Below, in pieces: positions 335 to 39,848 of a DNA stretch of 64,000 nucleotides. Below the pieces are notes generated by a model. The model had not been told where the DNA came from. It worked only from the letters and a program-made list of their open reading frames with translations, and made no database searches. A program made the position numbers and the translations under genes. The DNA comes from Sipunculus nudus (taxonomy: Eukaryota > Annelida > Sipuncula > Golfingiida > Sipunculidae), in contig CM049317.1 of the NCBI GenBank assembly GCA_026874595.1, forward strand, positions 12,626,882 through 12,690,881. The letters are read 5' to 3'. Position 1 is the stretch's first letter, and each line of letters starts with the position of its first letter.

Positions 335-445
335 GGTAAAGCCATCCAACAATCCTTAAATGAAAGAGGTATGTTTTTTGTAGGAACAACCCCTGGCTGA
401 AGGGTAATGTGACGCTTCTAATACATGTGTACGTTATTGTTTCAG

Positions 446-537
446 GTGTAAGCGAACAGTGATTGTGTTATCACCGGACTATATATTATCAGAACAGTGC
501 CAGTTTGAGATTAGATATGCTACAGCACTCACGTCAG
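446..537 (+). CDS. Gene A exon, middle of TIR domain (92 nt)
   Basis: The exon starts after a ttcag acceptor and ends at g|gtaatt. The first base completes a split codon, followed by 30 codons and one base (phase 2 in, phase 1 out), exactly as in gene B exon 6. It encodes the conserved IVLSP strand and the QCQFEIRYA segment. Confidence 0.88.
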
Positions 538-3500: not shown

Positions 3501-4723
3501 ATGGGTCACTTGTTTGTATTCTTCCTACAAGTTGGTAATATTTCACATATTTGATTTAGGAACTTCTTTGCCAAAGGGTGCTGCACAAAAGTTTAATTCT
3601 TTTTTTTTTTTGTATTACCCATTTCAAACAAATTTATGGTGTATATGTGACATGTGATAGCTTATTCCTAATCCCCTCATAGTTTCAAGGATACCATCCG
3701 CCTTTCTCAGGTTAGTGTAGTTTATGCATGGTTTGTTCTCTTCAAAATACAACCTCTCTCACATCAAGTGATCAGAGTGCATTTCTTTCAAAAAAAAAGC
3801 TCTCATCCACCCCAGTTTAGTTCTGAGTCTCACCAAAAGGAGGCAGCTCAAACAGGTGTCAGCCTTAATGGCATGCTGTTCTGAAATTTGCTAAAAGAAA
3901 ACACTTGCCCACAAGAAATTTTCTCAGTCATTTGAAAGAAAAAAGTCTAGATTGTGCTCTAGTCAAAGAGTGTTTCATTACAAACAGGCAACACAATTGA
4001 CAAGAAAAGATATTTTATGCATATTATATAGAGCCATTTTAGTTAAACTTTTCTTTCATTAAGAAAAATGTGGAATATTTATTTTTATAAATTATTTTTT
4101 GTCAGGTTAAATGTTTGTTTAGTAAACCCAAAGTGGCAGAATTATTAATATAGTTGATTATTTTATGATTATATTGTATTAATTTTATGTAATATTATTT
4201 AATATCATATTATTTTATATTATTATATTGTTTTATATCATATTATATATTTCTGTATGAAATGATAAAGATATTAAATTGAATTATACTTTTTTTAGTA
4301 TGATTTGCTATAATATTTATTGATAATAATTGCATAATAAATTATATTAAATGTCATGAAATTTTATTATATTGTATTTTATTATGTACTTCAGATGCTG
4401 GCAAGAAGAAGATAGTGCCAATATTATACAAAAAGTGTCAGATTCCTCACACGCTGCATTTTCTAACATTACTAGACTATACAAAGACTGCGTTTCAAAA
4501 TTGTTTCTGGGACCGGTTATATAAAACCCTGAAAAGTAAAGTATTGGAAGATTCATCATTTAATTCTGAATCAGACTTATCTTCCATATCATTCAGGCCA
4601 AAACGGCGGAATGCTATTCGTAGGAAAACGCAAAGTTCACTCAATGGGCTGTCGTCCTCTGTGTCAAGTAGTTCATCGTCTGAACTTGAAGTGAGTACGT
4701 CATCTCAAGGATCCAAGAGCTGA
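446..4723 (+). CDS. MyD88-like: MyD88-like adaptor, gene A, 3' part only (two last coding exons: 446-537, 4395-4723)
   Basis: This is the C-terminal half of a TIR domain and the tail of a MyD88-type adaptor; the 5' exons lie outside the window. Exon 446-537 (92 nt, after ttcag, before gtaatt) encodes the TIR segment with C-K-R-T-V-I-V-L-S-P and Q-C-Q-F-E-I-R-Y-A. Exon 4395-4723 (after cttcag) encodes D-A-G-K-K-K-I-V-P-I-L, the box 3 'FW' in QNCFWDRL, and ends at a TGA. The 92-nt exon has exactly the length and phase of exon 6 of gene B. The tail after the TIR is rich in serine and basic residues and shares a short patch (S/T-D-L-x-S-I, then N-A-I) with gene B. By family knowledge it would act in the cytoplasm, linking Toll-like receptors to IRAK kinases. 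The death domain is not visible here, so a TIR-only relative is possible, but the exon structure and sequence match MyD88. Confidence 0.88.
1236..3515 (+). mobile_element. Non-autonomous repeat element with agctcagctga / cagctgagc ends (copy 1)
   Basis: The left end, in a T-run, is ttttttagctcagctgact followed by a gtccgtc-type leader. The right end is cagctgagcgtcatgaccc then atgggtcacttgttt. The same two ends bound another element at 5059-8042, which supports a mobile family. The interior from about 1580 to 2330 is a diverged tandem array of about 140-bp period (aggtcaaaggtcaaggtcac...cctttcatcc...). There is no transposase ORF. It lies inside the last intron of gene A. Confidence 0.7.
1580..2335 (+). 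repeat. Diverged ~140-bp tandem repeat with AGGTCA half-sites
   Basis: Units restart near 1588, 1729, 1870, 2007 and 2310. Each has runs of aggtca; three contain the direct repeat AGGTCA-A-AGGTCA at 1726-1738, 1861-1873 and 1997-2009. This is part of the mobile element in the gene A intron. Confidence 0.65.
4395..4723 (+). CDS. Gene A terminal coding exon (TIR box 3 and tail)
   Basis: The acceptor is cttcag|AT, and G plus AT gives the split Asp codon. There are 108 further codons and then TGA at 4721-4723. It carries the last part of the TIR (VPILYKKC, then FWDRLYKTLKSK) and a tail of about 60 residues with long serine runs. I see no AATAAA close behind the stop; the 3' UTR length is unknown. 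Confidence 0.88.
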
Positions 4724-5058: not shown

Positions 5059-5714
5059 TTTTTTTAGCTCAGCTGACTATAAGTCATCTGAGCTATAGTT
5101 GTGGTCCATTGTTTGTCGACCGTTCGTCTGTCTGTCCGTCAATGTGGCACATTTTGAAACCATAAGACCTAGGAATCTAAAATTTGGCATAATGTTAGAT
5201 GTCCCAAAGATCTCCTACCAAGCCGAAAACTGGGTCTTTGCGATTTCGTTCCTTTAAGAAATTAAGGAAAAACCTCAATGTTTTATTAAAAACCTATTTT
5301 CACTCTTTAGGACTGTATAATATCAAAACCAGTTGTCTGTTTTTCCTCATATTTAACCCTATGTACATGCCAGAAATTAAGTCTGTTAAGTATAATTTCT
5401 TTAAGTTATGGGCCCGAACTTAATGGACTTTGTAAAAAATCAGGAAAAATATTTACTCACTTAGCATGAAAAATTTTGAAACTAGAGTCTATTTTCCCAA
5501 GTATATAACTATGTTTAATTAAGATTCAATTGTTTACCCAAAATTAGATATGAATTTCGTAAATTTTTTTAAGTTATTAGAATAAAAATTAAATCAGTAC
5601 CTTAAATTTTGCCCAACTTTGACCATGGCACTTTTTATGCCCCCGCCACAAAGTGGCCGGGGCATATAGTTTTACCCATGTCCGTCATTCCGTCATTCAA
5701 AAATCAAACAGTTG

Positions 5715-6795
5715 TACGGACTTTTTTTCGCAATGCCTGCAGATATTGGCCTGATTTTTGGTGTGTGGGCAGATAATGACCAGTTACAGATCGAGTTCAC
5801 GTTTCGTCCCGATTGACCTACTTTTGACCGTTTTAAGGCTCCTAAACTTGGAAAATTTCATGAAAAATAGAAATTTTCATGACAAATACACATGTACGTA
5901 CTTTTTTTCGCAATGCCTGCAGATATTGGCCTGATTTTTGGTGTGTGGGCAGATAATGACCAGTTACAGATTGAGTTCGCGTTTCATCCCGATTGACCTA
6001 CTTTTGACCGTTTTACGGCTCCTAAACTTAGAAAATTTCATGAAAAATAGAAATTTTCATGACAAATATACATGTACGGACTTTTTTTCGCAATGCCTGC
6101 AGATATTGGCCTGATTTTTGGTGTGTGGGCAGATAATGACCAGGTACAGATCGAGTTCGCGTTTCATCCTGGTTGACCTACTTTTGACCGTTTTATGGCT
6201 CCTAAACTTGGAAAATTTCATGAAAAATAGAAATTTTCATGACAAATACACATGTACGGACTTTTTTTCCCAATGCCTGCAGATATTGGCCTGATTTTTG
6301 GTGTGTGGGCAGATAATGACCAGTTACAGATCGAGTTCGCGTTTCGTCCTGGTTGACCTACTTTTGACTGTTTTACGGCTCCTAAACTTGGAAAATTTCA
6401 TGAAAAATAGAAATTTTCATGACAAATACACATGTACGGACTTTTTTTCCCAGTGCCTGCAGATATTGGCCTGATTTTTGGTGTGTGGGCAGATAATGAC
6501 CAGTTACAGATCGAGTTCGCATTTTGTCCCGATTGACCTACTTTTGACGGTTTTACTGCTCCTAAACTTAGAAAAATTCATGAAAAATAGAAATTTTCAT
6601 GACAAATACACATGTACGGACTTTTTTTCGCAATGCCTGCAGATATTGGCCTGATTTTTGGTGTGTTGGCAGATAATGACCAGTTACAGATCGAGTTCGC
6701 GTTTAGTCCCGGTTGACCTACTTTTGACTGTTTTACAGCTCCTAAACTTAGAAAAATTCATGAAAAATAGAAATTTTCATGACAAATACACATGT
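5715..6795 (+). repeat. 180-bp tandem satellite, six near-identical units
   Basis: The marker ctttttttcg(c)caatgcctgc recurs at 5720, 5900, 6080, 6260, 6440 and 6620, exactly 180 bases apart. Each unit holds cagatattggcctgattttt, a cagttacagatcgagttcgc segment and gaaattttcatgacaaatac. Units differ by a few substitutions only. Two diverged units follow at 7487-7860. Confidence 0.95.
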
Positions 6796-6806
6796 ACAGC
6801 CGTTTT

Positions 6807-10036: not shown

Positions 10037-12233
10037 TTTGTCACCCACTCTGCGGTGCGGGGGACATTGATTAGGGTCTGTCTGTCTGTGCGTCTGTCTG
10101 ACTTTTTGTCCATCCGTCAGGTTTCGTTTCCATGCGATAAATTTCCGAAGGCTAAATATTATCTGATTTCATTCAAATTTTGGTAGGTGATTCCTCCCAT
10201 GCTTACCTTGGTCGGGATTGGTTCTGGAGTGTCTGCCTTATGTCTGTCACTTTGCCTGTCTGTCAGGTTTTCTTTTCCGTCTGATAACTTTCTTAAATAT
10301 TATCCGATTTCATCCAAATATGAGTCATTGATTGCTCTCATGCATACCTTGGTTGGGATTGGTTTTGGAGTGTCTGGCTTCTGTCTGTCTGTCTGTCACT
10401 TTGTCTGTCTGGTTTTCATTTCTGTGTGATAACTTTCCTAAATATTATCCAATTTCATCCAAATTTGGGTCATTGATTGCTCTCATGCATACCTTGGTTA
10501 GGATTGGTTTTGGAGTGTCTGGCTTCTGTCTGTCTCTCCGTCTTTTTTTTCTGTCTGTCAGGTTTTCATTTCTGTGTGATAACTTTCCTAAATATTATCT
10601 GATTTCATTCAAATTTTGGTAACTGATTGCTCTCATGCATACCTTGGTTGGAATTGGTTTTGGAGTGTCTGGCTTTTGTCTGTCTGTCACTGTCTGTCTG
10701 TCAGGTTTTTGTTTCCGTGCGATAACTTTCCTAAATATTATCTGATTTCATCCAGATTTGGGTCACTGATTGCAATCTCTCATGCATACCTTGGTTGGGA
10801 TTGGTTTTGGAATGTCTGGCTTCTGTCCATCTGTCTGTCTTTCACTTTGTCTGTCTGTCTGTCAGGTTTTCATTTCTGTGTGATAACTTTCCTAAATATT
10901 ATCCAATTCATTCAAATCTTAGTCAGTGATTCCTCTCATGCTTACCTTGGTTGGGATTGGTTTTGGAGTGTCTGGCTTCTGTCTATCTGTCTGTCTGTCA
11001 CTTTGTCTGTCTGTCAGGTTTTCATTTCTGTGTGATAACTTTCCTAAATATCCGATTTCATCCAAATTTGAGTCATTGATTGCTCTCATGCATACCTTGG
11101 TTGGGATTGGTTTTGGAGTGTCTTGCTTCTGTCTGTCTGTCTGTCACTTTGTCTGTCTGTCAGGTTTTCATTTCTGTGTGATAACTTTCCTAAATATTAT
11201 CCAATTTCATCCAAATTTGGGTCATTGATTGCTCTCATGCATACCTTGGTTGGAATTGGTTTTGGAGTGTTTGGCTTCTGTCTGTCTGTCTGTCACTTTG
11301 TATGTCTGTCAGGTTTTCATTTCTGTGTGATAACTTTCCTAAATATTATCCGATTTCATTCAAATTTAGGTCATTGATTGTTCTCATGCATACCTTGTTT
11401 AGGATTGGATTTGGAGTGTCTGGCTTCTGTCTGTCTGTCCATCTTTTTTTTTCTGTCTGTCAGGTTTTCATTTCTGTGTGATAACTTTCCTAAATATTAT
11501 CAGATTTCATCCAAATTGAGTCATGGATTGCTCTCATGCATACCTTGGTTGGGATTGGTTTTGGAGTGTCTGGCTTCTGTCTGTCTGTCTGTCACTTTGT
11601 CTGTCTGTCTGGTTTTCATTTCTGTGTGATAACATTCCTAAATATTATCCAATTTCATCCAAATTTGGGTCATTGATTGTACTCATGCATACCTTGGTTG
11701 GGATTGGTTTTGAAGTGTCTGGCTTCTGTCTGTCTGTCTGTCACTTTGTCTGTCTGGTTTTCATTTCTGTGTGATAACATTCCTAAATATTATCCAATTT
11801 CATCCAAATTTGGGTCATTGATTGTACTCATGCATACCTTGGTTGGGATTGGTTTTGAAGTGTCTGGCTTCTGTCTGTCTGTCTGTCACTTTGTCTGTCT
11901 GGTTTTCATTTCTGTGTGATAACTTTCCTAAATATTATCCGATTTCATTCAAATTTAGGTCATTGATTGTTCTCATGCATACCTTGGTTAGGATTGGTTT
12001 TGGAGTGTCTGGCTTCCGCTGTCTGTCAGTCTTTTTTTTCTGCCTGTTAGGTTTTCATTTCTGTGTGATAACTTTTCTAAATATTATCCGATTTCATTCA
12101 AATTTTGGGCAGTGATTGCTCTCATGCATACCTTGGTTGGGATTAGTTTTGGAGTGTCTGTCTGTCAGTCCTTTATCAAGCATGAAAAACAAAATATCCC
12201 AAAGCGGGGGACATTAATTCAACGAATTTGCTT
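10037..12233 (+). mobile_element. Inserted element with gcgggggacatt terminal repeats and a ~147-bp satellite core
   Basis: The left end is gtcacccactctgcggtgcg then ggggacattgatt. The right end carries the direct repeat gcgggggacattaatt followed by caacgaatttgctt. It sits in the T-run of the host phrase: cagtatattttt stops on the left and tttttataaaatttgataac continues on the right. The open frames inside it (rich in CLSVCHFVC-type residues) are only the translated satellite. Confidence 0.8.
10170..12175 (+). repeat. ~147-bp tandem satellite, about 14 units
   Basis: The marker ataccttggttgggattggt recurs roughly every 145-152 bases from 10201 to 12130. Each unit has gtctgtctgtcactttgtct, a gttttcatttctgtgtgata segment and aactttcctaaatattatcc. 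Unit length varies with the number of gtct tetramers. Confidence 0.93.
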
Positions 12234-12776
12234 GTTTTTATAAAATTTGATAACTGAAATGTTTCTACCAAAATCTCAGAAGTGTTCATCTTCAAGGGCA
12301 AATCAGCAGCAAAAGAAATATTTTGTAAACGCTATCACTTTTGAACCACTCCATATATTTTTATGAAATCTGATACGTTAAATGTTTCTCGGATGTGTTC
12401 GTAAACCGATGACTGACCAAGTCATCAGAAATAGGAATATTATTTTACACAACCTTTGAACTAAACATTTCTTCGTGATATCCGATACACGTATTGTTTC
12501 TACCAAAATATCAGATGAGTGCAAAAACTGGTGACCTTGACCTTCATCATCACGGTAAATCTTCAGATATATTTGATTTTGTGAATGACAACAAGGAAAG
12601 AAACTGTCTACTTTCCTCTAGACTTCGTTTGAAACGACCACCTCAAAATACATACGACAACATTTTCACGGTCCCAATTCGTATGTGCTCTTTATGTCAG
12701 ACCTCGCTCAGACGACCACCTCGAAAAGGAGGCCGCTTTATCGAGGTCCCGTTTGTGGTCGTAATTTCCGTTATTT

Positions 12777-17135: not shown

Positions 17136-18455
17136 AGTCAATGTTGAGACACATAAGACACTTGATCTAGTCAATGGTGAGACACATCAGACACCTGATC
17201 TAGTCAATGGTGAGACACATTAGACACCTGATCTAGTAATGGGTGAGACACATCAGACACCTGATCTAGTCATGGGTAAGAAACATCAGAAACCCGATGT
17301 AGTCATTGGTGAGACACATCAGACACCTGATCTAGTCATGGGTGAGACACATCAGAAACCCGATCTAGTCATTGATGAGACACATCAGACACCTGATCTT
17401 GTCCTGGGTGAGACACATCAGACACCTGATCTAGTCAATGGTGAGACACATCAGACACCTGATCTAGTCATGGGTGAAACACATCAGACACCTGATCTAG
17501 TCTTGGGTGAGACACATCAGACACCTGATCTAGTCATGGGTGAGACACATCAGACACCTGATCTAGTCACTGGTGAGACACATGAGACACCTGATCTAGT
17601 CATGGGTGAGACACATCAGCCACCTGATCTAATCACTGGTGAGACACATCAGACACCTGATCTAGTCATGGGTAAGACACATCAGACACCTGATCTAGTC
17701 ATGCGTGAGACACATCAGACACCTGATCTAGTCATGGATGAGAACATCAGACACCTGATCTAGTCACTGGTGAGACACATCAGACACCTGATCTAGTCAT
17801 GGATGAGACACATCAGACACCTGATCTAGTCATGGGTGAGACACATCAGACACCTGATCTAGTCATGGGTGAGACACATCAGACACCTGATCTAGTCAAT
17901 CATGAGACACATCAGACACCTGATCTAGTCATGGGTGAGAACATCAGACACCTGATCTAGTCACTGGTGAGACACATCAGACACCTAATTTAGTCATGGG
18001 TGAGACACATCAGACACCTGATCTCACTGGTGAGACACATCAGACACCTAATTTAGTCATGGGTGAGACACATCAGACACCTGATCTAGTCATGGGTGAG
18101 ACAAATCAGACACCTGATCAAGTCATGGGTGAGACACATCAGACACCTGATCTAGTCACTGGTGAGACACATCAGACACCTGATCTTGTAACTGGTGAGA
18201 CACATCAGACACCTGATCTAGTCAATCGTGAGACAAAATCAGACACCTGATCTAGTCAATCGTGAGACACATCAGACACCTGATCTAGTCATGGGTGAGA
18301 CACATCAGACGCCTGATCTAGTCATGGGTGAGACACATCAGACACCTGATCTAGTCACTGGTGAGACACATCAGACACCTGATCTAGTCATGGGTAAGAC
18401 ACATCAGACACCCGATCTAGTCATGCTTGAGACACATCAGACACCTGATCTAGTC
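17136..18455 (+). repeat. 33-bp minisatellite, about 40 units
   Basis: The unit is gagacacatcagacacctga then tctagtcatgggt. The array is about 1320 bases. One frame reads G-E-T-H-Q-T-P-D-L-V-x, so parts are open (17239-17763, 17996-18250, 18228-18482). One-base deletions at about 17743 and 17939, a one-base insertion at about 18236 and a TAG at 17221 break the frame. Unit variation is concentrated in the last codon position (ATG, AAT, ACT, TTG, CTG). There is no start context, splice site or flanking domain suggesting a real protein. Confidence 0.95.
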
Positions 18456-18489
18456 AAGGATAAAGTGTTTTTTGTCATATGACAGGTAA

Positions 18490-25957: not shown

Positions 25958-26268
25958 CTACACCGAAGAGATTGACGTCATCCTTGTCCAGGGCCTGTCA
26001 ATGTGAGGCTCGCTCATGCTCCGTTTAAGCGCCTTGATAGCGTTTTTGCCTCCAGTCGTAGAGAGGGCGATGGACCTGAGATCCGTCTGAGGCGACTCGT
26101 GTTCCCAACTTCCGGTGGAGTACTTGCTTTTGATGGTGTCACAAAGACGCTTCCAAAACCATCTCTGGAACTGTGGACGGGTGTAGTTGAGCATGGCCAT
26201 AAACTGAAGGATTCTCGGCACTCTGCACGGCTTGATTATGATTGGTATAATCTTCTGCTGCCCAGCAT
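25958..26268 (-). CDS. Gene B exon 7: end of TIR (box 3) and C-terminal tail
   Basis: The acceptor is catacag. It encodes DAGQQKIIPIIIKPCRVP, then RWFWKRLCDTIKSK, then a 54-residue tail ending TSISSV before the stop. The tail shares D-L-x-S-I and K/R-N-A-I with gene A. Confidence 0.92.
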
Positions 26269-29200
26269 CTGTATGATATAATATTATGATCATATATAAA
26301 GTATAAGCTAAATCATAGATGCACATCAGGCATCTGTCATTTGTACAAATAGAATATCATTAATTATATGAAGGATAATATAAACAATAGTTGCTCGACG
26401 TAGGTTAAAATATAAATAGAAGGTTTCGGCAGTGTCTTTAACCAGATAACAAACATTTTCCACGATACTGGCAACACCTGTTGGCGACATTTAACACTAG
26501 GAGTTCGGGTTGGATTAATCGATGAAGAAAGATCAGAATAAGTCGTATTTCAAATGCAAAAATAACGTCTTCTAAATAATTTTAATTGGCAAAATTACGT
26601 GGTCTGTAACTTGTTTTGGTTTAAAACTGCCACTGCAGGCGTCGATTTTGTTACGTGTCCGGAAGAGCAAGGCCATATTTTAATCATTTTATTATAGGAG
26701 GCTTTAGTTAAAAAGCTGATCACTGAATAATATATCATACTTATATGATTCATGACCTTTTGGTCAACTATACCTGAACATGTTATGCATTATACGTGCG
26801 AGATTAAGTCAAATCTGACATCCTGTAGAGGGATTTGGTAAAAGATATTTATTCCGTCTTGCGACAATGAAGCTTTTATTGATTTTGGAGTAATCCTAGT
26901 AACAGAAATCTAGTTTGGCTGTGGTATGTGCTCTCTCGGTACGAGCTCTCTCGTTTATATTTCTGAGATGACAAGGTGTCTCACCTGGCGACAATGAACT
27001 GGCGTAGCGGATCTCAAACTGACACTGCGGTGACCCGATGTACTCCGGCGATAAGACGATCAAAGTACGCCGACATCTGGAATGTAAAGGTACACGCCAT
27101 GTTTGTAAACGACACAAGGTTTTAGGATTCGCTATACCTAGTATATTTACTACTGATCGAAATAAACAGAATTCCAGAAAGCCTATGGCATGTTGATCAG
27201 CAACGGACATGTGCATAAATTACTTATTACTTACATTTATCATAGATGGATAAGGCAGGGGTTGAAATATGGTTATATATCAGAATGTAATATATGCGAT
27301 ATCTCGTCCTGCAGAGGTTGAAATTACATCAGGTTCAATAGCACACCGATAAGATACATTTTTCAGTTAAGTTGAACAATTTGCACAATTATGACTGTTT
27401 GTATTTAGGAAATATACATATGGTCAGATTTTACTTGATGGTAGGACTCCAAGAGAGCTTATGATTGGCTGGTGCAGGAATGACGTCATGCACAGAATTT
27501 AATGATGAATAAAATTTAGCAATACACGTTGGTTTATCCTCTGAAAACTTGAATACCGAAAGTGTCAGAAATACTACACGCTTTTAATGAGATCTAGAAT
27601 TGTTGGTTACAAGGTCTTCGTCATGGAAGAGTTGACATTGCCCAGGGATATACTGGCTGTGCTGCTAAAAGTTATATTTCGCGTTTATGATTCGGTCAAA
27701 TTATAGCAAAACTTGACTCACGCCTGCAGACTAGAAACGGAATCGCCGGTACGCGTTTGGAACCGGTTTATCGCACACCGGGCACAAGAAGAACGAACTA
27801 AGTACTGTAAACCATCTTTCAAGTGGACTAATATGAACCGAACTGATGCGGAATAAGGGCTTACTACCGACAAATTGATCCGATTCACCACCCGGATTAG
27901 TTACTATAGTGCGGATACCAACATAGAGGGATACTTAGGATCCATTGCGAAATTTCGAAATAATAATTCCTCAGGATGTATAGGATAATACAGAAAATTA
28001 CCCCCCTCCCCCTTCGCCCCCACTTCCATTCGAAACTTGGCTTCGGTCCCGACACTTCAAGGCCAAACATAGGCAGTTGCGTGACAACAGTTTACTCCCA
28101 ACTCAGTTATAATATAGACGTATACATCTTATTGCGGTAGGGTTTTCGTATACCATTGCTTTTTAAATGTAAGTAGGCACTACCTCTCTCAGCGCAATTA
28201 AAAAAAACGCCTTACCTCTCTTCAATGACCTGCGCAGTAATTTCGTAAGCAGAGTCTCCAAAAATCAGGTCTCGTTCTGGGATCAGGAGTTTGAGTTTGT
28301 ATTTCTTCTCCAGGACACGAATCATGCGCTCAACGAAGGGCAAGTCTTCTTCACAATAACTCACGTAGGCGTCGAATTGTTCCCTCTCACCGGCCTCTGA
28401 AACAAGAATCATTCATAACATGTACACATTTCCCTTTCATACATGGCTTCATGAAAGCTACAATTCCTTCAAATTTCGAATTTAAACAAAAATGTAGTTT
28501 TATTAGATAATAAGGTTTGATTCCAATGGTGGATACAGGAACTAAGGGTGTGTGTTTGGACTTTATACGTAGCTCTCATACCAGAAGTAAGTGAAAACCC
28601 GTGTGCGACGCATAATCCGGCGTCTCTTTTCCCTAACGAGCATGAACTTGCTAATTCAATTTTCAGATTTTTTTAGGGCCCAGATCAGGGGTTGAGCGTC
28701 CTCTGTGTCCCCTTCTAATTCCGTCCCTAGTTCCCGAGGGTGGCCTTGTCTGTTAAATGAGGCTGACGATAAACGATAAATTAAATTGTGACCCCTGTAC
28801 GTTGAACTCATGTACCGCTTTTTAAAAGCTAAACGTGTTATGTGACGTTAGTGCGTCTCCCCTTTTTGCCCCAAATCGCACGAATACGAATAATACCTCA
28901 CTTAAACTACTGGCCATCCCTGATGTCTTCACCCAACGATGTCAAATAAAAGCTAGCATTCTTGGTATTAAGTTTTAATAGAATATATGATATATACAAT
29001 CATTTATGGTTGAAAGGAATGACAACTTGTTAGCAGTTCAAAGTTGGACAGGATCACTAAAATCATGGCGATGAGGAGCGCTGATTCTGACAGGGGCGCA
29101 TATCAGGTTTTATACGGTATCAGTAGGGCGTAATGCTGGTATTATATATGAGTGGTCCTATACCCTATAAGCAGCGGTTCTGCGATGCTAAACTATTTGC

Positions 29201-36900: not shown

Positions 36901-39848
36901 GACCTTTACCATCACATGAGCGACATCTGTTGGTGACAAGTGAGGTCACATCCACGTTTCATATTTGATATGTCTCAAATACAGATACGACCTGGTTCGC
37001 TGGACCCGCAGACAGGAGACGAAAATAGACGCAGTGCGCATGCTCGGGGAAAAGGTCTATTTTCACACTGCGCAGAATCGCACTCACAAGAGTTTGACTC
37101 TGCTGGTTAGGGTTTATGAGCTACAAGATTTTCCTCCCACAATACATGAGGAGCGTAAGTATAAAAGTAGTGAATAGGGTAATGCAGTCCGTTTAATTAT
37201 TTGGAAACAAGAATTGTTTTAGGCAATTTGCATAAACATGGTAGTTTTTGCGGTAAGCACTTTATAGAAAAGCAATATTTGTTTTTCCTTGAAATGTAAC
37301 AAATTTTGATTTCTGAGTTAGACAGTTGAGACAAGACCCGACGGACCCAGCTTTCCTGACAAGAAGAGGTTCGTTTATGTAGAAATTATGTAATCAGCAG
37401 ACTGTTAAATTAAAATATAATCATCTAACAAGATAAAATGCGCTGGTTTTCTGGTGGCACCAGAAGCAGATCCGTGGGGGGGGGGGAGCAAGGGGGTCCG
37501 GATCCTCCTTTTGCAGTCGCTGCAACCTTTTTTTTAAAGAGTTTGTTGCCTAAACCCGCTTTTCCTAACCCGGGGAACCTTTTTTAGGGTTTTCATTTAT
37601 CCGCCCGGGTTGCATCTTCACCCACCCCTTCCTAAACATCGGCCCCTATAACCGAAGAATTAGGGGCGTAAGACCTGCAACGCCGTCTGTAATTATGTTT
37701 TCCACCACAGTATGTATTAAAAATAAGACGTTATAATAGCTAGATAGACGTACAGTTCACCATGCAGAACATCTTCACTGGCTCTTACACTAATGTGCGA
37801 CGGTCAAGGAACTATAAATTAGTATTAAGATTTACCTATCCCAGTTTTTGCAATTGAGCCATATATACATAGAACCGGCGAGCCTTACAAGCATTACCGA
37901 CGACCCAAGTCTACTTGGGGCTTGTTGATACTTTATGAAACAGCAAACATAGTTGTTCGACAGAGAAGGTCTATGGAAATGTAGCTTCCCTTAAAGAAAA
38001 TGTGTAACGCCTGTGGTCGAAGAAATAAACTGGACATTACAAGCCATAGGATCGGTATCAGTTACTGTGGAATACTTGAGCGGACACAATTTGGGGACTT
38101 CAATCTGACTCACAGAAAAGCACAGCTTGTAATCTGGAGGCAGAATCTGAAGTAAATTTGACGCAGAAATAAGTGTTGCTGGCGTATGTATCTCTTTGTG
38201 GACCCCCCCCCCCAAAAAAAACAAAAACAAAACAAACTATACAAGCAACATATGAAAGAACACACAATACATTTGCACCTTCTTGAGTGTGAACATTCTT
38301 ATTTAATCCACCAACACCAGATGGCGCTGACAGACAACAAATGCAACTTTTTCTTTAAGACTATCCAAAAATAAACTCTTACCTAACGACGGTTTTATAT
38401 CTTCTATAACATCCCACCTCTGTAGCTCGTATAAACACTTGAGTAACAGAGACACGGTATTGAGTTGGTCCTTCGCAGCCCATTTCTTCAAAAATGATTC
38501 GAGGTTGGATTCGGACCCCTCACTTTGGTCTTTTTTATTCCTCCTCAGGAGATGTATCAGTCCCCTCCCGTCACAGGGGAGGTTTCCGTTAATCCTGATA
38601 GGAGAAGGTGCGGCTAAATCAACGCATAAAATATTCCATGTGGTAGAACTTAACGCCTGGGCCGGAGTGTTTCCATAAGCACTGTACAATGAGTCTATTT
38701 CTTTTTGATGTTGTTGTTCTATCAGTCTGTTGTGATATGAATCTGCAGCTTCCTCTGAAAAAAAAGACGAAAAAAATACATAATATATTAACTAGATGGC
38801 TTTGTTTTGACACATAACTCCCCCCCCCCCCCCCCTATAATGGGCCATTCACAATCATTAGGGGTATAAATACGCTTATCTCAAAACAATGATTATAGAT
38901 TTCAGCAGATTTGACCGGAGATCAAGATCAAGGTCACTAGTTTTCTGACTCCTTCTACATGTTACCGCGTTCATAAGATGATCCTGCAGACGATGCGGAC
39001 GACGACGAAAGATGATGACACTCAAAACAACGTCTCCCCGGGGGGGGGGGGGGGGGGATAATAAACTTGTTCTATCGACCTGTTCGTGTATTAACTACTT
39101 CCAATGAAAAAAAACACGAACACAATATGTATTATAATTAATGAGATTATGCGTTTTGACTGTCCCTTTTAAAAGATTATTTGATAGAGATAACCGCTTC
39201 TTATTTAAATTGATTTAAGTAGGCACATTCAGTTTGGGACAATATGAAAGGGCAATAGTAAACACTTCCTCCATTTTATATTTCAGTGTCACTCGGGCCA
39301 AGGGTCTACTGGAAATGTGTGCCCCCGGTGTGAAATCATACGCTATTTTTGGATTATAAGACAAAGGATCCAATACTCGTTTGTGAGAAATAGACGAACG
39401 TAAGTATGATTCCGCGTATACAGTGCAATTAATTTTGTCCCAATATTTATGAAATATTCATGTTAGATTTTGCATATACATTAATATTCAACAGCCAAAA
39501 TGTATGTATAAATAGCAGGGTCAAGTACTCACCAACCAATTGCATGATTTCCGTTAAGATATCTCTCCTTTCCAGCTCTTCTAGTTTCTCTAATATAATC
39601 CCCACGTTGCTGCCTGCTTTTGCACCATAAGCTGCCAGCAATGACCCAGTTGGGTCGTTGTGCTGCTCAAAGTTTTGAATTTCAAGAAAACAAAACCCCA
39701 GCAGCTCAGCCAGTCCCGTCCAGTCGGGTGCCATTTGGTTTTTGTTGACAATTATCTGTCGGGGATTCAAATTTAATACCAACGTCCTTTTTATTCGATT
39801 TGTTAATTCACTGACCGGAAGGTCGTAAAAGTTATTTCCGGCCGTCAT
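25958..39848 (-). CDS. MyD88-like: MyD88-like adaptor, gene B: death domain, second death-like domain, TIR (7 coding exons, 447 aa)
   Basis: Cytoplasmic adaptor of Toll-like/IL-1 receptor signalling; its death domain should assemble IRAK kinases and its TIR should bind receptor TIRs. Exons (- strand): 39533-39848, 38383-38754, 35266-35307, 34839-34868, 28216-28396, 26985-27076, 25958-26268. All have GT/AG borders and consistent phases (1,1,1,1,2,1), total 1344 nt. The ATG at 39848 is preceded in frame by TAG two codons upstream. Residues 21-105 form a canonical death domain (DWTGLAELLGF, then DPTGSLLAAY). Residues 106-130 resemble the MyD88 intermediate segment (EEAADSYHNRLIEQQ). Residues 145-229 form a second death-like fold (FLKKWAAKD, then LLLKCLYELQRWDV). 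The TIR is about 259-393: box 1 FDAYVSY, box 2 PERDLIFGD, box 3 W-F-W at 381-383. The tail is 394-447. The BB-loop Pro position is Phe299. The overall call is firm; the second death domain is inferred from pattern. Confidence 0.92.
26985..27076 (-). CDS. Gene B exon 6: middle of TIR (92 nt)
   Basis: The acceptor is cattccag and the donor G|gtgaga. It encodes CRRTLIVLSPEYIGSPQCQF followed by EIRYASSLSP. Same length and phase as the gene A exon. Confidence 0.93.
28216..28396 (-). CDS. Gene B exon 5: first half of TIR (boxes 1 and 2)
   Basis: The acceptor is tgtttcag and the donor AG|gtaagg. It encodes EQFDAYVSYCEED to ITAQVIEE. Box 2 reads ERDLIFGD. Confidence 0.93.
29430..29475. promoter_or_regulatory. 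Possible NRF1-type motif in gene B intron 4
   Basis: gctgcgcatgcgtgg at about 29451-29465 contains TGCGCATGCG, the core of the animal NRF1 consensus. It is a single weak hint of intronic promoter activity. Confidence 0.25.
30620..31265 (+). repeat. Degenerate hexamer repeat (ggactt/ggactc) in two blocks
   Basis: Blocks at about 30635-30790 and 31120-31262 repeat phrases such as gacttggactctgacttgga. They are separated by unrelated sequence and lie inside gene B intron 4. Confidence 0.75.
30777..30895 (+). repeat. Dispersed repeat, copy 1 of 2 in the window
   Basis: agaagcggattgaggggggt, then gctgcaaccttttttcagga and ggcctggatcccccttttat. It is similar in order and orientation to 37450-37600. 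Confidence 0.6.
31300..33900. other. Gene B intron 4, AT-rich, nothing else seen
   Basis: No open frame or RNA gene can be supported. Frames at 31400-31597 and 31888-32145 look random. Confidence 0.45.
33903..33959. repeat. (AT)n microsatellite in gene B intron 4
   Basis: About 28 AT units. Confidence 0.97.
34470..34562. promoter_or_regulatory. Paired CCAAT boxes plus perfect hairpin near micro-exon 4
   Basis: ggattggccaatgag (about 34477) and ctggccaatcagcg (about 34502) each carry a CCAAT box. They are followed by the perfect inverted repeat cttccacaggct / agcctgtggaag (34532-34543 and 34551-34562, 7-base loop). The block lies 277 bases downstream of exon 4 on the gene strand. It could be an internal promoter or part of a repeat; this is inference. 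Confidence 0.35.
34839..34868 (-). CDS. Gene B micro-exon 4 (30 nt)
   Basis: The acceptor is tttttgcag and the donor A|gtaagt. It encodes SGELLTVGD plus split codons. A decayed copy stands at the equivalent place in the pseudogene (16536-16564), which supports it as a real exon. Confidence 0.8.
35266..35307 (-). CDS. Gene B micro-exon 3 (42 nt)
   Basis: The acceptor is ttgttaacag and the donor G|gtatgt. It encodes ADVQRHSNIKAGQ plus split codons, a linker before the TIR. It is too short to find by open-frame search; frame and phase fit its neighbours. Confidence 0.7.
35925..36090 (+). repeat. Dispersed/duplicated repeat, copy 1 (gene B intron 2)
   Basis: aacaggatttactattttag, then agccgccatcatatgatcag and gcaattccggttcacgtttt. 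A diverged direct copy lies about 770 bases downstream at 36695-36860. Confidence 0.7.
36695..36860 (+). repeat. Dispersed/duplicated repeat, copy 2 (gene B intron 2)
   Basis: aacaggatttgccgtcttag, then agccaccatcatatgatcaa and gcattacttccgcttcactt. Its existence explains the open frame on the - strand at 36618-36893, which I do not regard as a gene. Confidence 0.7.
37450..37600 (+). repeat. Dispersed repeat, copy 2 of the family at 30777
   Basis: agaagcagatccgtgggggg, then gctgcaacctttttttt and a cctaacccggggaacctttt segment. It lies in gene B intron 2 and contains G- and C-runs. Confidence 0.6.
38383..38754 (-). CDS. Gene B exon 2: intermediate segment plus second death-like domain (372 nt)
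   Basis: The acceptor is tttttttcag and the donor G|gtaaga, phase 1 on both sides, 124 codons. The first third is charged and Gln-rich, like the vertebrate intermediate domain. The rest has the spacing and hydrophobic pattern of death-domain helices 2-6. Confidence 0.88.
39533..39848 (-). CDS. Gene B exon 1: start codon and first death domain
   Basis: It holds 105 codons plus one base and ends GTTG|gtgagt. The sequence from DWTGLAELL to RRDILTEIMQLV aligns with the vertebrate MyD88 death domain, including the DPTG turn. Confidence 0.92.

Follow-up and report, generated by a model that had tools for sequence, protein, structure and literature searches.

The stretch of DNA analysed here, a window of 64,000 nucleotides from Sipunculus nudus, overlaps a cluster of MyD88-family genes on contig C12 that holds gene C (minus strand), gene A (plus strand), a broken TIR copy and gene B. 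The window also contains a tandem array at 17224-18482 (plus strand), whose open frames repeat the motif TPDLVMGETHQ, and two more tandem arrays with recurring open frames, at 5600-6800 and 10187-12243.

Structure of gene B

Gene B is a predicted gene model on the minus strand (window 39848-25958), in which five exons bounded by GT-AG introns join into a 1272-nt frame, stop codon included, that encodes 423 aa, with fitting splice sites and phases throughout. Exon 1 (39533..39848), defined by Pfam and PDB matches and by its splice signals, supplies the start codon and a first death domain (DD1, residues 1-105) and ends in phase 1. Exon 2 (38383..38754; 372 nt, phase 1-1), defined by splice signals and frame, opens with an intermediate-domain-like stretch, EEAADSYHNRLIEQQHQKEID (residues 106-126, 38693..38754; placed by the frame, the acceptor and a low-confidence structure model), and continues with a putative second death domain (DD2, residues 127-229, 38384..38692; recognized by Pfam Death, a DD1 profile and a tree). 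The joined frame then runs through exon 3 (28216..28396, 181 nt, first part of the TIR, with a PDB TIR match), exon 4 (26985..27076, 92 nt, second part) and exon 5 (25958..26268, third part, C-terminal tail and stop). The preliminary description had given the feature as 38383..39848, which is right to the base, exon 1 being 39848-39533 and exon 2 being 38754-38383 on the minus strand, and the peptides it cited are present. Its main claim, that two consecutive death domains precede the TIR, is borne out by sequence profiles, by homology via gene A and by the gene structure. The domain order DD1, short intermediate stretch, DD2, TIR, with approximately 130 residues between DD1 and the TIR, is confirmed at the level of the predicted gene model.

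The splice signals of exon 2 are strong (acceptor TTTTTTTTCAG, donor G|GTAAGAG), and the end of exon 1, in matching phase, lies 778 nt upstream. By codon score exon 2 does best in its own frame, but the value is modest (training used ten pieces, one of them dropped for a frame slip): among 7005 overlapping open windows taken from DNA presumed to be non-coding, 29 score at least as high as DD2. Exon 2 could be a cassette exon that is mostly skipped, or part of another transcript, the main product then having one death domain: its 1-1 phase means that skipping keeps the frame, intron 2, with its 9986 nt, leaves space for other exons or starts, and the splicing of exon 2 is a prediction from genomic sequence. 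However, both splice sites of exon 2 fit the consensus, and the exon lacks an in-frame Met codon and must therefore be spliced to an upstream exon, while the homologous exon of gene A ends in the phase in which the following TIR exon begins and could be joined to it directly. We consider the cassette reading improbable.

A MyD88-type death domain and TIR frame the protein

The N-terminal and C-terminal modules of gene B are both of MyD88 type. Exon 1 matches Pfam Death at E 4.7e-11, and the best PDB matches of DD1 are MyD88 structures (6i3n at 5.3e-15, 3mop at 6.3e-15), the next family being p75 at 0.0017, which upholds the earlier assignment of this exon as a MyD88 death domain. DD1 is 47.1% identical to human MyD88 over 87 columns and retains human W47, E52, R98 and D100, with V in place of S34 and E in place of K95. 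The joined TIR matches the MyD88 TIR in PDB at E 1e-34, the next family (TLR) following at 5.9e-9; Pfam TIR_2 and TIR are both above cut-off, and identity to human MyD88 is 43.5% over 131 columns. At the BB-loop position, which we take to be Pro in the human MyD88 TIR, gene B has Phe, gene A has Ala and gene C has Gly.

Between these modules, the stretch that begins exon 2 is helix-prone and forms a long helix in the low-confidence exon 2 model. Its description as intermediate-domain-like is plausible by eye, and we presume that it resembles the intermediate domain (ID) of human MyD88; a search with it returned only a 6-residue chance match, so the likeness is without statistical support. In a plain MyD88 a short ID joins the death domain directly to the TIR, whereas in gene B DD2 intervenes after the ID-like stretch, and because of this separation we file gene B as a MyD88 variant and not as a plain member of the family.

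DD2 is by sequence a diverged death domain

The preliminary description had proposed an HMM search of exon 2 against the Pfam Death family. That search does find exon 2 (E 9.2e-4), at 19.7 bits, below the curated cut-off of 22.6; trimming to DD2 raises the score to 20.7 bits (E 4.7e-4), still under 22.6, so that DD2 does not qualify for PF00531 at the curated cut-off. Run on the joined gene B protein, the model hits two stretches, the match in DD2 being limited to its C-terminal half. Homology to proven death domains comes from two other comparisons. First, a profile of B DD1, C DD1 and the human MyD88 death domain, built without DD2, matches DD2 at E 0.0072 (15.0 bits), ranking it fourth of 6354 ORFs in 257 kb; only B DD1, C DD1 and gene A's domain score better, and the ORF after DD2 stands at 1.4. 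Second, DD2 matches gene A's death domain with 31.4-33% identity (E 6e-13 in a local search, 1.2e-7 genome-wide), and gene A's domain itself exceeds the Pfam cut-off with 29.1 bits and matches PDB MyD88 at 5e-5. A profile of DD2 and gene A's domain, to which the latter contributes much, retrieves 13 PDB matches, all 13 of them death-domain proteins, six at E 0.0013-0.0036 (p75, MyD88) and seven at 0.23-1.7. The direct BLASTP alignment of DD1 and DD2 covers 34 residues only (E 2e-4, as a single comparison).

Chance likeness is one reading of the sub-threshold Pfam score and of the search of PDB with exon 2 alone, which gave 0 matches at E 10. Yet among shuffled versions of trimmed DD2 (5000 made, 4298 scored) none reaches the 16.4 bits of DD2 itself and the maximum is 8.4, and both the independently built DD1 profile and the match to gene A's domain speak against it; we regard chance as an explanation that can hardly be right. 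The alignment places FLKKWAAKD opposite human LLDAWQGRP, and LLLKCLYELQRWDV opposite LLELLTKLGRDDV, a small correction to the correspondence previously drawn between this stretch and the LLDAW region of the vertebrate domain. On this sequence evidence, DD2 belongs to the death domains as a diverged member, and its type is that of the single death domain in gene A.

Under another reading, DD2 is a death domain in decay that has lost its fold or its contacts and has become a linker, which would make gene B an ordinary one-death-domain MyD88 with a long spacer. Its branch, at 1.26, is the longest among the five domains, the equivalents of W47 and E52 are absent (G and H stand in their place), the domain is gapped at human I61-R62, and the Pfam coverage of one half would also fit. 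So would the poor structure models: AlphaFold gave a pLDDT of 42.9 for exon 2 alone and of 47.3 for DD2 with DD1 as a second row, an arrangement biased towards DD1. In Foldseek the DD1-biased two-row model returned four matches, all death-fold proteins (E 3.7-7.7), and the single-sequence exon 2 model also returned four, all unrelated proteins, neither low-confidence model giving a significant match. The structure prediction proposed in the preliminary description as a check for a six-helix death fold thereby yielded no usable fold for DD2, which also counts against the main reading. However, DD2 contains no stop or frameshift though only 31% identical to gene A's domain, and it retains the R98 and D100 equivalents and several core leucines. 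We judge the decaying-linker reading rather unlikely.

Genes A and C and the broken TIR copy

The relatives of DD2 and DD1 lie close by. When exon 2, DD1 and gene A's domain were each used as a protein query against the whole 1.43 Gb genome, in searches that score only their best candidates and so give lower bounds, at least four MyD88-type death-domain exons were recovered: B DD1, C DD1, that of gene A and B DD2. A match to exon 2 on contig C10 (E 0.09) has two internal stops and was set aside.

Gene A (plus strand) begins left of the window, with its death-domain exon at C12:12603502 and its first TIR exon at C12:12625577, and extends into it with TIR exon 4 (matched stretch 444..533) and its last exon (third TIR part and tail, matched stretch to the stop 4394..4723), both located by sequence match. 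No DD1 exon was found for it on its strand between gene A and gene C, and among the matches listed in the genome-wide DD1 search there are only B DD1, C DD1 and gene A's own domain. The death-domain exon of gene A has an in-frame ATG, but two bases ahead of this there is an acceptor compatible with phase 1, and gene A may therefore have a diverged exon further upstream.

Gene C (minus strand) looks like a canonical MyD88. A sequence search locates its DD1-type exon (C12:12546755-12546437), and a candidate linker exon of 22 aa and phase 1-1 (C12:12530941-12530876) was picked, on splice sites and by eye, from three candidates that passed the splice filter; no second-death-domain exon was found in the stretches of gene C examined. 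Outside the window, the last TIR exon of gene C occurs in two similar versions, at C12:12523722-12523585 and C12:12516762-12516625 (minus strand), which are possibly alternative or duplicated ends. The broken copy repeats the three TIR exons of gene B at window 16265-16107, 15461-15393 and 14245-14108 (minus strand) with in-frame stops, its first exon being 81% identical to gene B over 53 residues; no death-domain exon was found beside it.

Origin of DD2

In a tree of the death domains, B DD2 pairs with gene A's death domain with 98% bootstrap, and the pair appears in each half of the domain (ultrafast bootstrap 97 for the N-terminal and 88 for the C-terminal half). The AU test rejects 12 of the 15 topologies, those that separate DD2 from gene A's domain (p at most 0.032); the SH test leaves two of these 12 at 0.0508. 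When short p75 and p100 fragments are added, p75 (a fragment of 66 residues) adjoins DD2 with a support of 52 in a weakly resolved tree, so that gene A's domain and DD2 are not secure as an exclusive pair; the split between the DD2 group and the DD1s keeps a support of 92 in this enlarged tree.

The preliminary description had presented DD2 as a repeat of the death-domain pattern, which stands as far as homology is concerned and fails if a fresh copy is meant. A recent tandem duplication of exon 1 would account for the fact that both exons end at the same domain position and in the same phase. However, DD1 and DD2 share 22.5% identity, less than the 31.4% between DD2 and the gene A domain. Moreover, each of the three topologies in which DD1 and DD2 form a pair is rejected by the AU test (p at most 0.017), and we hold such a duplication to be very improbable. 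By these comparisons DD2 is no fresh copy of DD1 and is an older domain of a different type. The TIRs of genes A and B also pair with each other (99%). Taken together, the two pairings indicate that the common ancestor of genes A and B most likely carried DD2-TIR already. This ancestor may itself have been a double form, with DD1 later lost from gene A; alternatively, DD1 may have been a gain of gene B. In its make-up gene B resembles its two neighbours combined, with DD1-ID as in gene C and DD2-TIR as in gene A.

Discussion

MyD88 is generally regarded as an adaptor with one death domain, in which the size of the assembly sets the number of kinases recruited. We think it probable that gene B encodes a MyD88-family adaptor in which DD1 and the intermediate stretch form the core of a Myddosome while DD2 provides a second, different contact. 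In this arrangement, the TIR of gene B would dock on Toll-like receptors, DD1 and the intermediate stretch would build the Myddosome core and recruit IRAK kinases, and DD2 would add a death-domain contact of another specificity, either to a different partner or to the product of gene A, instead of a second IRAK4 site. The G and H at the W47 and E52 positions make a second IRAK4 site unlikely and another specificity more likely. Human MyD88 requires its death domain together with its ID for filaments and NF-kB activation, according to passages of one report (PMC13424689), and in passages of another, E52del is a disease allele and the MyD88-IRAK4 interaction is impaired by R98C and S34Y (PMC12754000).

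The phase symmetry of exon 2 has a further consequence, namely that skipping it yields an in-frame DD1-TIR form without the intermediate stretch. Mammalian MyD88 has an inhibitory short form, to which this product might be comparable, and the exon that follows the death-domain exon of human MyD88 is presumably phase-symmetric as in gene B. More tentatively, gene B could be a fused double adaptor (C-like DD1-ID and A-like DD2-TIR) bridging two death-domain assemblies, with the skipping of exon 2 as an off switch, a doubtful but possible proposal in which DD2 would co-assemble with the product of gene A or recruit a partner other than IRAK4. Whichever contact DD2 makes, the presence in one cluster of a predicted DD1-ID-DD2-TIR gene beside DD2-TIR and DD1-ID-TIR paralogues is a natural test case, and could be used to test whether the number and type of death domains set Myddosome size and partner choice.

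Comparison with known systems highlights similarities and differences. In human MyD88 (PDB 3mop, 6i3n, 8w8m), as in gene B, an ID-like stretch follows the death domain; unlike human MyD88, gene B has a second death domain of approximately 100 residues between this stretch and the TIR, and Phe in place of the BB-loop Pro. Gene A is closer, its only death domain grouping with DD2 and its TIR with that of gene B, but differs from gene B in that no DD1 exon was found for it. The preliminary description had also suggested a survey of bivalve MyD88 sequences, and two published proteins are informative in this respect. As given in passages of the respective papers, MyD88 of the scallop 'Hongmo No. 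1' has a death domain at 30-118 and a TIR at 164-299 (PMC10854496), and that of Tridacna crocea has them at 24-123 and 179-316 (PMC7148125). Both share the order of death domain and TIR with gene B, but their gaps of 45 and 55 residues, compared with approximately 130 in gene B, leave no room for a DD2. Oyster MyD88-like genes are described in passages of two papers as Death-TIR or TIR-only (PMC4346834, PMC7381170). For Anodonta MyD88, of 474 aa, SMART is reported to recognize a single Death domain and a single TIR domain (PMC9226314); this protein may hide a second death domain, as no domain positions are given in the passages.

Literature phrase searches, with most subscription papers outside their scope, found no two-death-domain MyD88 by title. 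A Culicoides paper was rejected as a candidate because the passage in which 'two death' occurs concerns Imd and FADD. Predicted MyD88s with two death domains may exist elsewhere. Signalling proteins with tandem death-fold modules are known, caspase-8 and cFLIP having two DEDs and RIG-I two CARDs. Like gene B, these proteins carry two death-fold modules per chain for assembly; unlike gene B, their modules belong to different subfamilies and are not accompanied by a TIR.
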